Assembly: GCF_900009135.1 (NCBI RefSeq)
Contig: NZ_LT797701.1
Coordinates: 222,705-260,840, forward strand
Source of the DNA: Planktothrix sp. PCC 11201
Lineage (GTDB): Bacteria; Cyanobacteriota; Cyanobacteriia; Cyanobacteriales; Microcoleaceae
DNA: 38,136 nucleotides
Direction: 5' to 3'
Below are positions 2,947 to 13,709 of the stretch, piece by piece (position 1 is the stretch's first letter; each line of letters starts with the position of its first letter). The notes below the pieces were generated by a model. That model was not told where the DNA came from. It saw nothing but the letters and a program-made list of their open reading frames with translations, and did not search any database. A program made the translations under genes and the position numbers.

Positions 2947-4353
2947 ATGGACGTTAAGGAAGTGTTAAAATTTGCTGACGACCTAGTATTTGCCAAGACT
3001 GGAAAACACCTTGACAACGTGCAAGAGGCTATATTGCAGGGTGCTTGGCAAGGTCAAACATATACCGAAATTGCAGAGGAATTCGGCTATAGTGATGGTC
3101 ATCTCAGAGATATTGCCTCAAAATTATGGAAAATCATGTCAGAAATATTAGAAGAAAATGTCAATAAATCTAACTTCCACTCCACAATGGAAAGATATCA
3201 AATTTCTCAATATTCTAATTTCCTTAACTTAAATTTTATATTTATAGAACAAGGTAATATAAATAATTTCTGCACAGAAACCCCACACCCTCCCAAACCT
3301 ACACAAAACTCACCCCCAACACAAAACTCAAACGAAAACAACACCCAACAAAAACTCGATTTAAGAGACGCACCAGATATCAAAACCTTCTACAACTACC
3401 CCTCCTCACCCCTCACCACCCTCGAAAATGCGATCGCACACCAAAACTGTCGCCTCCTCACCATCACAGGTATGAGTGGCATCGGCAAAAGCGCGATTGT
3501 ACGTCACCTCATCCCCCTAATTCAAACTCAATTCGATCGAATTATTTGGCGCAGTCTCCGCACTTCCCCACCCCTAGAAACAACCCTCAAAAACCTGATT
3601 CAATTTCTCTCAAATCAACCCGAAATTACCTTACCAGAAAATATTGATACCCAACTAGAAATACTAATAGAATCTTTACGCACCCATCGCTGTCTCATTA
3701 TCCTAGATGACGTGCAACAAATCCTCAACAGCGGCCAACTTGCAGGCAATTATAAACCCGGATATGAAAATTATGGAACCCTATTTAAACTTATCGGCGA
3801 AATTCCTCATCATAGCTGCCTAATCCTCAATAGTTGGGAACCCCCTTCAGATATTTTAACATTTACAGATGATAATTCAGCGGTATGTTTATTACAATTA
3901 ACTGGATTAGGTGAAGCCGCAACAGAAATTATTAGAGAAAAAGGTTTATTAGATGAAGATCGCTGGCCAGAATTGATTAACCTTTATCAAGGTAATCCCC
4001 TCTGGTTAAAACTAGTCGCTCAAACTATTAATAACTTATTTAGCGGTAGAGTATCTCAATATTTGAGTTATCAAGCAGTATTGTTAAACGATGAATTGAC
4101 ACCGATATTACAGCAGCATTATCAGCGGTTGTCGGAGTCCGAGAAACACGCGATCGCGCAACTCAGTAACGAAAGTAAAACCGTTTCAATTACCCAATTA
4201 ATGGCAAAATGTCAAGGGTCACAAGGCGAATTATTTAAAGCAATTCAATCTTTAGTAAGACGGGGAATGATCGAAAAATTCAGCTATGAAAATGAAACTG
4301 TTTTCACCATTCAACCGATATTAAAAAAATATGTTAAAATGGTTAGCGAATAG
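2947..4353 (+). CDS. STAND (NB-ARC-type) ATPase with N-terminal HTH, no C-terminal repeats
   Basis: The 468-residue product has three parts. Residues 1-80 match the N-terminal helix-turn-helix-like domain seen on many cyanobacterial NB-ARC/WD40 proteins (TYTEIAEEFGYSDGHLRDIA). Residues 100-150 are a Pro/Asn/Gln-rich linker. Residues 150-465 are an NB-ARC-type NTPase with Walker A GMSGIGKS (175-182) and Walker B CLIILDDVQ (D254, D255), ending in a winged-helix-like region. Relatives usually continue into WD40, TPR or pentapeptide repeats that sense or act; this one stops after the ATPase. STAND proteins act as signal-dependent oligomerising switches, several in phage defence. The linker is C-rich and the 3' third A/T-rich, hinting at mosaic origin. 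Ligand and output are unknown. Confidence 0.8.
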   Translation: MDVKEVLKFADDLVFAKTGKHLDNVQEAILQGAWQGQTYTEIAEEFGYSDGHLRDIASKLWKIMSEILEENVNKSNFHSTMERYQISQYSNFLNLNFIFIEQGNINNFCTETPHPPKPTQNSPPTQNSNENNTQQKLDLRDAPDIKTFYNYPSSPLTTLENAIAHQNCRLLTITGMSGIGKSAIVRHLIPLIQTQFDRIIWRSLRTSPPLETTLKNLIQFLSNQPEITLPENIDTQLEILIESLRTHRCLIILDDVQQILNSGQLAGNYKPGYENYGTLFKLIGEIPHHSCLILNSWEPPSDILTFTDDNSAVCLLQLTGLGEAATEIIREKGLLDEDRWPELINLYQGNPLWLKLVAQTINNLFSGRVSQYLSYQAVLLNDELTPILQQHYQRLSESEKHAIAQLSNESKTVSITQLMAKCQGSQGELFKAIQSLVRRGMIEKFSYENETVFTIQPILKKYVKMVSE

Positions 4354-6058: not shown

Positions 6059-6126
6059 CGCTACTATTCTTTCCCTATAACCAATATCCAAAGATTGAAT
6101 CTGTATTTTGCTCATTGATTCCAACA

Positions 6127-7089
6127 ATGATTCTGTATCCTAAAACACAAAAACCCTCAGAGCTTGGTAGCCACTTGTGTGAAAACCGGGTTGATCGATG
6201 CTCAATTAAGTTTGAGCCAATTGGTGATATTCCAGAACGTCCTAACTATCACCGCCAATCTGGTGAACTTAAGCAAACTAAGGTTTTGTTTCCTGAGTAC
6301 AAAGATATTTATGCTCAAGTACAACAGCAAAATCTGATGCGTTTGGATAAAGCATGGCAACGATGGATGGTGCCTGACAAAACAGGCAAACCAGGTGGCA
6401 GACCGAGGTTTAAAAAGTCTGGTGGGTTACGCTCTTTCACTTTTCCACAAACTAATAGTGAGAAAGCAGGAGCGCATATTATTGGCGATAATTTAAAGCT
6501 TAGTAAAATTGGCGTTATGCCAGTGGTTGTGCATCGTCCTATCCCTGATGGATTTACGCCTAAGACTTGCACTCTAATCAAAAAAGCTGATGGCTGGTAT
6601 GCCTCAATCGTAATTGAAGATGCAAGTGTACCATCGCCATTATCTCTTGATACTCACTATCAAGTTGCTCATAAGTTATGCGAGAAATATGATCTGATTG
6701 GCTTGGAAGATATCAATATCAAAGGCTTGGCTAAGACTCGTTTAGCTAAGTCAATCCTTGATGCAGCATGGGGACAGTTTTCGCAAATCCTAGAAGCAGT
6801 GGCGGTAAAACGCGGCAACTGGATTGTGAAAGTAAATCCCTATGGTACTTCTCAAAGATGTTCTGGCTGTGGCAAAAATGTTCCTAAAGCTCTGTCAGTT
6901 CGCACCCATGAATGTCCGCACTGTGGCACCGTCTTAGACCGTGATCACAATGCGGCAATTAATATCAAAAATTTAGCTCTTAACGCCGTCGGACTTACGG
7001 TGTCAGCCTGTGGAAGCAAGCGAGGTTACTCAGCTTGTGAAGCAGGAATCTTTATCTGTGAAGAAAAGAAGCTCACGCTATACCGCTAG
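6127..7089 (+). pseudogene. tnpB: Degenerate tnpB lacking RuvC-I
   Basis: The frame stays open but pieces of the protein are gone. Present: the segment from IGDIPERPNYHRQ to RPRFKK and FTFPQ; RuvC-II LIGLEDINIKG (Glu codon at 6706); the zinc finger C-x2-C (codons 6859, 6868) and C-x2-C (6913, 6922); RuvC-III DRDHNAAINI (Asp codon at 6943). Missing: about the first 40-50 residues, and an in-frame block of about 110 residues between IEDASVP and THYQVAHKL (junction near 6640-6657) that should hold the RuvC-I motif D-x-G. Without that Asp the RuvC site cannot cleave. No good SD precedes the ATG at 6127. It could still bind RNA or DNA, but decay is the simplest reading. Confidence 0.8.
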
Positions 7090-11390: not shown

Positions 11391-13187
11391 ATGAGTCAAT
11401 GTCTTAATCCTGATTGCCTCCAACTCAACTCTAAAACTACAATTTTTTGTCAAAAATGCGGTTCTAAATTACTATTAAGGGAACGATATCGAGCTTTAAA
11501 AATATTAGGACAAGGGGGGTTTGGTCGAACGTTTCTAGCGGTGGATGAAGATAAACCGTCTCAACCCTATTGTGTAATTAAACAATTTTTACCCCAAGCT
11601 CAAGGCACGAATAATCAAGAAAAAGCCGGAGAACTTTTTAAACAAGAAGCCGTACAATTAGAACATTTAGGCAAACATTCCCAAATTCCTGAATTATTCG
11701 CCTATTTAATCCAAGATAACCGTCAATATCTAGTTCAAGAATATGTTGAAGGACAAAATTTATTACAAGAATTAGATCAAAATGGGGCATTTTCAGAAGC
11801 TAAAATTGTTAATTTGTTAGGAGATTTATTGCCTGTTTTAGCATTTATTCATCAAAAACAGGTAATTCATCGAGATATTAAACCGGAAAATATTATTAGA
11901 AGAAAAAGCGATAATAAATTATTTTTAGTGGATTTTGGAACAGCTAAAGTAGCCACCCACACGGCGTTAGCGGGTATAGCAACTCAGCTTGGTTCACCCG
12001 GATATTTCGCACCAGAACAATGGGCAAGAAAACCGATCTTTGCTAGTGATTTATATAGTTTAGGGGTAACTTGTATTCATTTATTAACGAATATTGATGA
12101 CCCTGGGTGTTTATTTGATTTTGGTAAAGATGATTGGGTGTGGCGAAATTATTTAACGGTTAAAATCAATAATACTTTGGGTCAAGTCTTAGATAAACTT
12201 TTACAAAAGGGAACTGAAAAACGTTTTCAAACGGCTCAAGAAGTCTTAGAAGCATTACAATTAACCGTTAAATCGGCCCCCGCCTCCAATCCCTTCAAAT
12301 TACCAGGATTACAACAATTAACCATTAAACCGACACCCTCTTTAAAAACCGTTAGTTTTGAAACCGTAACCGTCAACTCCACCGGAAAAATTACCAACCG
12401 TAGGCAAGCCCAAGCCCAAGTGTTAACTGAAAATATCAATGGGATAATATTAGATTTAGCAGTAATTCCCGCCGGAACTTTCCGCATGGGTTCCCCTAGC
12501 AGTGAACTATCACGATCAGACAATGAAGGGCCACAACGTACTGTTAATATAAACTCTTTTTTGATCGGTCAATATGCCGTGACTCAAGCCCAATGGCGGG
12601 CGGTAGCTGGTTTACCCAAACGTCAGATTGATCTCAAGCCCGACCCCTCCAGTTTTAAAGGAGATAACTTACCTGTTGAGAGTGTAACTTGGTTTGAAGC
12701 CGTAGAATTTTGCGATCGCCTCTCTCAATTTACCGGACGTACCCATCGTTTACCCAGTGAGGCAGAATGGGAATATGCCTGTCGCGCTGCAACCACCACC
12801 CCCTTCTATTTCGGTGAAACCATCACCCCCGATTTAGTCAACTATGACGGCAACTATACCTACGGCTCCGGGCCTAAAGGGATTTATCGGAAAAAGACAA
12901 CGGTTGTCGGCAGTTTTCCCCCTAACGCTTTTGGATTATACGATATGCACGGCAATCTTTGGGAATGGTGCGCCGACCCTTGGCATGAAAATTATAATAG
13001 TGCGCCCACGGATGGCAGTGTTTGGGAGTTTGGGGGAAATACGCAATACCGGGTGATTCGCGGAGGTTCGTGGGTCAACAATCCCAGGAATTGCCGCAGT
13101 GCCAATCGTGGCAGGGACGTGCCGGACAGTCGGAACAGCAACTACGGATTTCGTGTTGTTTCCCTCCCGCCTGCGTGGACTCCTTAG
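11391..13187 (+). CDS. Ser/Thr protein kinase fused to FGE/SUMF1 domain; candidate DGR target
   Basis: The 598-residue product has three parts. Residues 4-23 carry four Cys that look like a small zinc ribbon. Residues 33-290 are a Hanks-type kinase: GQGGFG loop (40-45), VIK Lys64, HRDIKPEN (Asp162), DFG (181-183), APE (207-209). Residues 350-592 are an FGE-sulfatase/SUMF1 fold (FRMGSP, YAVTQAQW, RLPSEAEWEYACRAA, GNLWEWCAD, RGGSW, GFRVV). In bacteria this C-type-lectin-like fold often serves as a binding domain rather than a formylglycine enzyme. The last 48 codons match the layout of DGR variable regions. The protein lacks a membrane segment, so it is probably cytosolic. It stands alone; a 151-bp repeat array follows. 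Confidence 0.9.
   Translation: MSQCLNPDCLQLNSKTTIFCQKCGSKLLLRERYRALKILGQGGFGRTFLAVDEDKPSQPYCVIKQFLPQAQGTNNQEKAGELFKQEAVQLEHLGKHSQIPELFAYLIQDNRQYLVQEYVEGQNLLQELDQNGAFSEAKIVNLLGDLLPVLAFIHQKQVIHRDIKPENIIRRKSDNKLFLVDFGTAKVATHTALAGIATQLGSPGYFAPEQWARKPIFASDLYSLGVTCIHLLTNIDDPGCLFDFGKDDWVWRNYLTVKINNTLGQVLDKLLQKGTEKRFQTAQEVLEALQLTVKSAPASNPFKLPGLQQLTIKPTPSLKTVSFETVTVNSTGKITNRRQAQAQVLTENINGIILDLAVIPAGTFRMGSPSSELSRSDNEGPQRTVNINSFLIGQYAVTQAQWRAVAGLPKRQIDLKPDPSSFKGDNLPVESVTWFEAVEFCDRLSQFTGRTHRLPSEAEWEYACRAATTTPFYFGETITPDLVNYDGNYTYGSGPKGIYRKKTTVVGSFPPNAFGLYDMHGNLWEWCADPWHENYNSAPTDGSVWEFGGNTQYRVIRGGSWVNNPRNCRSANRGRDVPDSRNSNYGFRVVSLPPAWTP
13041..13184 (+). other. Candidate DGR variable region (VR)
   Basis: Residues about 551-598 run RVIRGGSWVNNPRNCRS, then ANRGRDVPDSRNSNYG, then FRVVSLPPAWTP. 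In DGR targets of the FGE type, the template carries runs of AAC/AAT (Asn) codons here. In this gene Asn positions remain at 13077, 13080, 13089, 13104, 13134 and 13140, while intervening sites are GTC (13074), GGC (13110), GAC (13116), AGT (13128), AGC (13137) and TAC (13143). Each can come from AAC or AAT by changing only adenines. The C-terminal GC-rich stretch after FRVV could be the initiation-of-mutagenic-homing site. No template or reverse transcriptase is in the window, so the call is indirect. Confidence 0.55.
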
Positions 13188-13261
13188 CCCTTTACCCTTT
13201 AGCCCTTTAGCCCTTTACCCTTCTTTCTTCTTTTCCCTTCTTTCTTTTTTTTTTTTTTTTT
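13186..13261 (+). repeat. Low-complexity CCCTTTA repeats and poly-T tract
   Basis: AGCCCTTT/ACCCTTT heptamer-like units run from 13186 to about 13222, followed by C/T-rich sequence and an uninterrupted T tract of more than 15 bases. The T tract could aid termination of the kinase transcript. Confidence 0.7.
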
Positions 13262-13709
13262 GAATGTAAGGGCGGGTTCACCCGAATATTTGTTAATAAT
13301 AATTAACCTTTATAAACCCGCCGTCTTTCTCTTTCTGGGGTTGGGGCGGGTTTAGAAAGATTATTTGTGGGATTTGTTAGATTGTACAGAACCCGCCCCT
13401 ACTGGTTTTCTCGAATGTAGGGGCGGGTTCGCCAGAATATTTGTTAATAATAATTAACCTTTATAAACCCGCCGTCTTTCTCTTTCTGGGGTTGGGGCGG
13501 GTTTAGAAAGATTATTTGTGGGATTTGTTAGATTGTACAGAACCCGCCCCTACGGGTTTTCCCGAATGTAGGGGCGGGTTCACCCGAATATTTGTTAATA
13601 ATAATAAACCTAAATAAACCCGCCGTCTTTCTCTTTCTGGGGTTGGGGCGGGTTTAGAAAGATTATTTGTGGGATTTGTTAGATTTTGTTGAACCCGCCC
13701 CTACGGGTT
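13262..13709. repeat. Three tandem copies of a 151-bp palindromic repeat
   Basis: Units start at 13262, 13413 and 13564, a constant 151-bp period. Each begins with about GTAGGGGCGGGTTC and ends with its inverse GAACCCGCCCCTAC, and encloses a second inverted pair (AAACCCGCC and GGGCGGGTTT). Units 1 and 2 are nearly identical; unit 3 has a few changes in the A/T-rich part and near the right end, so duplication of 1 and 2 is recent. There is no ORF. A single unit has the structure of a MITE; tandem stacking is unusual for one. Confidence 0.85.

Follow-up and report, generated by a model that had tools for sequence, protein, structure and literature searches.

Why does a protein kinase gene end in bases that look selectively rewritten, with no enzyme nearby that could have rewritten them? 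The question is raised by a gene in a 38,136-nucleotide stretch of the Planktothrix sp. PCC 11201 genome (NZ_LT797701.1, here contig C19, positions C19:222705-260840; called the window below, with positions counted from its first base), whose product joins a kinase to a C-terminal domain of the formylglycine-generating enzyme (FGE) family. A sequence-only reading had taken the end of this gene for the variable region (VR) of a diversity-generating retroelement (DGR), an orphan served in trans from a remote site. We searched the whole genome (5.99 Mb in 103 contigs; labelled G000) and, with window 12900-13200 as the DNA query, obtained 13 places at E up to 10. Apart from the gene's own locus, three strong matches reach the VR: C29:126933-127228, C29:124259-124393 and C19:158722-158878. 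The second of these holds a template repeat (TR), which aligns without gaps to 129 bases at the end of the gene (the VR core, bounded where identity to the TR stops). The seven mismatches are each at a template A (13058, 13074, 13075, 13110, 13111, 13116 and 13120), for which, with 30 adenines among the 129 bases, the hypergeometric p is 2e-5, and none of the 99 non-A sites differs. The gene end is a DGR variable region, as had been claimed, and we conclude, with a probability of about 0.93, that it was written in trans by the genome's own TR on contig C29.

C29 carries on its minus strand, in this order, a target gene with TPR and FGE domains (958 residues; the local target), Avd (146 residues), a reverse transcriptase (RT, 352 residues) and the TR, which starts 17 bases past the RT stop codon. 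The RT matches PHROG 1423 at 6.2e-122, and its best PDB sequence match is 8ub7 ('Reverse transcriptase', 1.9e-47), which we take to be the BPP-1 DGR enzyme. It contains the motifs IGNLTSQ and YVDD; the pattern (I/V/L)GxxxSQ in domain 4 marks DGR RTs (PMC3521204), and the genome's other 10 RT loci have QGxxxSP (seven) or neither pattern (three). Avd scores 140.1 bits against NF033474 (NCBIfam; cut-off 80) and is also recognised by Pfam as bAvd and by PHROG as Avd; a PDB sequence search with it gave no match at E up to 0.001. A DGR-motif RT, an Avd and a TR close to the RT are all found together at C29. The sequence-only reading had staked itself on a genome-wide search for a template and a DGR-type RT, and both were found. 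It was also right that the 38 kb hold neither: the genome's 11 RVT_1 matches all lie outside the window and, among 12 TR matches at E up to 10, the sole one inside is the VR itself. Since RT, Avd and TR exist on C29 of the same genome, orphan status is rejected, and the reading is supported with 'remote' in place of 'orphan'. A remote variable protein is described in PMC7517822 as one whose C-lectin VR is at least 50% identical to a DGR target and lies more than 5 kb from the RT; here 113 of 129 bases equal the local VR, and the gene is on a contig other than that of the RT. Should C19 and C29 be parts of one replicon, at least 360 kb separate VR from TR (235,752 + 124,258 bases, counted to the closest end of each contig).

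Which template wrote the window VR? Base index 90 is C in the TR of the source genome and in its three VRs, and G in the TR of G007; of the VRs examined in other genomes (16), 15 have G at this index and one has T. Because C occurs here in 3/3 of the genome's own VRs and 0/16 of the others, the C29 TR most probably wrote the window VR, which bears out the claim that the target is remote and served in trans. The identity of the non-A sites with this TR, set against the diverged FGE flank, and the A-site differences between window and local VR (counts for both below) point to it as well. The anatomy of the DGR, the origin of the VR from a template, the adenine specificity and the match to the own TR can all be read directly from the bases. 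In the genome's two other VRs, 12/12 and 26/28 mismatches to the TR are at template A; the latter count belongs to the third target (C19:158727-158855), whose frame is a fragment behind transposase-like open reading frames (ORFs), presumably transposases. The six Asn codons that had been pointed out (13077, 13080, 13089, 13104, 13134 and 13140) are present and all equal the template codons. Eight template adenines had been predicted, five of them correctly (13074, 13075, 13110, 13111 and 13116); at 13129, 13138 and 13143 the TR has G, G and T, and the real A-to-N sites 13058 and 13120 had been missed.

Besides the TR, the genome has five FGE-family loci: the three TR-matching targets, C19:94340-95104, whose likeness is to another template, and C11:504399-505148, which shows no match to the TR. 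At the first of these last two, a 486-residue FGE protein at G000:C19:94322-95782 (L037 6323-7783) has a VR that can be compared with a diverged template of G001 (15/28 mismatches at A, p 1.7e-5). It is likely an orphan VR of a second DGR type, for which no RT was found in the source genome, where the protein search gave one RT match.

Ten genomes of the genus were searched, including G000, G001, G002, G003, G004, G007 and G008. Eight have DNA matches to the RT-TR segment, and eight an Avd match at E up to 0.001, which is above the cut-off in four (G000, G001, G004 and G007); in G002 and G003 Avd is a fragment that covers 55 and 50 positions of the model, respectively. The RT protein search, at E up to 1e-30, gave matches in three (G000, G007 and G001). 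The segment matches fall in 23 places, three of them templates, and 19 of the remaining 20 were aligned (the locus of the place left out, G003:C160:124193, was aligned to a neighbouring VR). Compared with the G000 TR, VRs of RT-bearing genomes are changed at 93/208 A sites and 19/691 other sites, and those of RT-less genomes at 180/360 and 69/1176, this last figure being a mixture of template differences and decay. Three rows are unclean: L134 has 10 mismatches at A and 10 elsewhere, L137 has 11 and 10, and L141 has 14 and 15. All 30 A sites and 43 of the 99 others vary in at least one row.

The window gene has a syntenic orthologue in G008, another species, where the same dnaK-like gene precedes it. 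The two differ at 11/30 template-A sites and 2/99 other VR sites (Fisher p = 1.2e-6), in line with the expectation that differences would be confined to template-A sites, and at 63/589 sites of the FGE flank. At the protein level, over 32 sequences (the window protein and 31 relatives from 80 loci), mean entropy is 2.53 bits in the 18 codons whose first or second base is a template A, versus 0.57 in 20 others (p 3.5e-7), five end codons with 13 or fewer rows (entropies 0.72-2.23) being left out of the test.

The cassettes of sister genomes differ in state. G004 has kept the local target and Avd, and there the stretch found past the TR in G000 directly follows Avd (L187 2760-2930, G004:C57), therefore RT and TR are gone from this place; three VR targets are retained. 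The TR of G007 is 4 bases shorter than that of G000, and its C11 target has the same loss with 0 non-A differences over 125 bases, a shifted frame and an altered protein end (loci G007:C36 = L125 and G007:C11 = L139); two other G007 targets examined lack the 4-base loss. It appears that template damage was copied into a target gene. A limited literature search turned up no copied template deletions in DGRs, and reports may exist. We tentatively suggest, at slightly under even odds, that receptors with kinase and TPR outputs form a genome-wide set written in trans from a single template, so that template changes spread, and that sister lineages lose RT and TR and freeze their last set. If true, this would be template-driven concerted evolution, with a mutate-then-freeze cycle visible within one genus.

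Some further observations concern the C29 cassette. The 3' flank of the TR (L023 6109-6257, minus strand) matches the Rfam RT-14 RNA (RF02921) over its full length with a score of 39.7 against a gathering threshold of 48.1; the match was found in one of the ten genomes, the source genome, and is not used as evidence. By eye, blocks of this flank recur after the G001 TR. Beyond the TR lies a second Avd fragment (L023 5021-5114, minus strand; 30 residues, 90% identity), perhaps a trace of cassette duplication.

How would the rewriting proceed? In the published model, TR RNA is copied by RT-Avd with adenine errors and the cDNA replaces the VR (PMC12875486). By analogy, TR RNA from C29 would be copied by the DGR RT with Avd, giving cDNA with random bases opposite adenines. 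With the common 3' edge as a guide, this cDNA would act in trans and replace the VR in which the kinase gene ends. Such an edge is visible: after CCTGCGTG, 18 of 19 genus VRs have GAC or GAT (one is truncated) and the G000 and G007 TRs have CGC, so that the distinction between IMH and IMH* (initiation of mutagenic homing) is present by sequence. On the C-lectin/FGE fold, as many as 18 codons, those with a template A as first or second base, could be rewritten, the template allowing about 10^15.9 protein variants, and frame and scaffold would be preserved because no template codon can reach a stop through A changes. AAC codons hold five of the seven changed adenines; PMC12875486 reports this context as more error-prone, and the comparison is ours. 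The result would be a kinase with a redrawn binding face. The sequence-only reading spoke of a variable sensor wired to signalling; we would put at about even the chance that the face is a variable sensor of a ligand or substrate and gates kinase output, and the system may be active at present.

Several observations weigh against this account. Four non-A mismatches abut the core, two at each end, and with these counted in, the adenine share is 7/11, under the rule in PMC7517822 that more than 80% of TR/VR mismatches should be at template adenines; the 7/7 of the core is above it. The four border bases are common to the VR of the local target, and they behave as VR borders, because GAC or GAT is found in the genus VRs where the TRs have CGC. 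Only 7 of 30 template adenines are changed, and the VR may record one old event. Foldseek with the AlphaFold model of the target protein (mean predicted local distance difference test score 84.4, predicted template modelling score 0.54) returned kinases for all 50 matches listed and is uninformative on the FGE half. Finally, there is no DNA hairpin after the window VR, as the folding of 13160-13260 is no better than that of shuffled sequences (z 0.28; the other hairpin search in the window covered arms of 12 or more), which counts against easy retrohoming, and none beyond chance past the VR of the third target (C19; z -0.51). At the local target a hairpin does occur, about 70 bases past the VR (L023 8870-8967, minus strand; z -2.41), and it may be a terminator. 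A hairpin is not a required DGR feature, because the need for it 3' of the VR is limited to a subset of DGRs (PMC3521204). As a separate observation, CGCGCGTCAGCGCG after the VR of the local target also follows three sister-species targets.

Could the pattern have arisen without the C29 template? The FGE module and the 3' tract are common to the targets and would favour gene conversion between paralogues. The window and local VRs, however, differ at 16/30 A sites and 0/99 others, and each retains template A at sites altered in the other, therefore neither was copied from the other; we reject gene conversion for the window VR as very improbable. Still less credible, and also rejected, is ordinary diversifying selection or chance with no retroelement. 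Loops of C-lectin-like folds do vary in many families, but here a near-identical template stands directly past a DGR-type RT with Avd, the mismatches are adenine-specific and the borders are abrupt at both ends.

A question apart from the origin of the VR is whether the kinase is now fixed, with its VR a fossil of DGR writing; this concerns the present and is compatible with a trans-written origin. Sister genomes retain A-patterned VRs with no RT detected, the G004 cassette lacks RT and TR, the window VR lacks a following hairpin, and removal of the machinery after selection of a good variant is suggested in PMC7517822. On the other hand, the RT and Avd frames are open in the source genome, and the 0/99 non-A differences between VR and TR contrast with 23% in the paralogous flank (window versus local target: 0/99 non-A VR sites and 125/535 aligned FGE-flank sites differ, Fisher 6.6e-11), therefore the last event was recent relative to the divergence of the paralogues. 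We consider a fossil rather unlikely. What the variable domain recognises is less clear-cut: it is quite possible, if somewhat short of an even chance, that it picks the kinase substrate by docking or acts as an immune antigen sensor, instead of sensing an environmental ligand. Against the antigen role, the neighbours look like dnaK and an FAD oxidase, unlike a conflict system; an NB-ARC protein is encoded 7 kb upstream. Substrate choice is raised in PMC7517822, and antigen sensing is proposed for conflict systems in PMC10907252.

How does this system compare with known ones? Of the cyanobacterial DGR targets surveyed by Vallota-Eastman et al. 2020 (PMC7517822), 76 are remote, and the multidomain ones are most often kinases. 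The window gene resembles these systems in joining an N-terminal Ser/Thr kinase to a grafted C-lectin-like module at the C-terminus, in its distance from the RT and in the VR at its 3' end; it differs in that two lines of evidence, a TR base specific to the genome and an orthologue in another species, support templating in trans. Remote kinase-C-lectin targets are thus already published for cyanobacteria (PMC7517822, where the word Planktothrix is absent from the main text), and what is added is a further case with comparative evidence on template spread and cassette loss. The DGRs of Thiohalocapsa PB-PSB1 also act in trans, with environmental reads in support of trans diversification, but the host is a purple sulfur bacterium, and its DGR targets are linked with NACHT and ternary conflict systems (PMC10907252). 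Nostoc punctiforme is, like Planktothrix, a filamentous cyanobacterium, and low-level adenine mutation was seen there by culture resequencing, but both of its targets lie within the DGR locus, close to MoxR and VWA genes (PMC12691664). The Bordetella phage BPP-1 DGR in E. coli likewise has RT, Avd, TR, VR and IMH/IMH*, and trans action is possible because its cassette and target worked on separate plasmids; its gene order is Avd-TR-RT in contrast to Avd-RT-TR here, and it has a stem-loop directly 3' of IMH, none being found at the window target (PMC12875486). Trans diversification of a signalling kinase is here documented with sequence markers that link template to target, and a small genus shows the cassette whole, with its template damaged, and stripped of RT and TR. 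These markers and cassette states therefore make two questions testable: whether rewriting of remote targets occurs in nature, and whether the host loses the mutator once useful receptors have arisen.

In the target protein (Table 1), the Pkinase domain spans residues 33-234 (Pfam, 4.7e-35). K64, H160-R161-D162, N167 and D181-F182 are invariant across the 32 aligned sequences and G183 is kept in at least 90%; K64, H160-R161-D162 and D181-F182-G183 are presumably the catalytic Lys, HRD and DFG of Hanks-type Ser/Thr kinases, all of which the protein thus has. The PDB relatives of its FGE domain by sequence include PvdO (5hha) and a Treponema denticola variable protein (2y3c), and the assignment is to a fold family, not to an active formylglycine-generating enzyme. 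Another kinase, at C28:250329-251207, shares 88% identity with the kinase half (window 11391 to 12275) and has a different C-terminus, and in G007 a related FGE-VR half sits on another kinase-like N-terminus; judged from these differing partners, the VR module has therefore been grafted between N-termini, as published for cyanobacteria (PMC7517822).

Table 1. Features of the remote target gene in window coordinates.
Feature	Position	Strand	Description
Remote DGR target gene	11391..13187	+	598 residues: 4-Cys prefix, Hanks-type Ser/Thr kinase, C-terminal FGE/C-type-lectin-like domain
FGE-sulfatase (C-type-lectin-like) domain	12459..13160	+	Residues 357-590; Pfam PF03781, 6.3e-58
VR core, 129 bases	13049..13177	+	Ungapped match to TR core C29:124259-124387 (minus strand)
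Conserved 3' VR edge (IMH-like)	13147..13187	+	VR ...CCTGCGTG then GACTCCTTAG; TR ...CCTGCGTG then CGCTCTCC; putative role
Pyrimidine tract TTTAGCCC/TTTACCC after VR	13184..13246	+	

The pyrimidine tract is shared by the targets of the source genome: CCCTTTAGCCCTTTA, with up to one mismatch, has seven matches in the genome, 7/7 at its three VRs (a reversed control pattern has two), and the tract is shortened or absent after several sister-species VRs. The genes that flank the target resemble, in our assumption, dnaK and an FAD oxidase. The NB-ARC-domain protein is encoded at window 2947-4353. An ORF with a Cas12f1-like TNB domain (window 6115-7089), which we take to be TnpB, lies 4.3 kb before the target. 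IS200/IS605 elements have been reported near variable proteins (PMC7517822). Starting 67 bases past the target stop codon, window 13255-13707 holds a 151-nucleotide repeat in three tandem copies, the second and third being 96% and 92% identical to the first.
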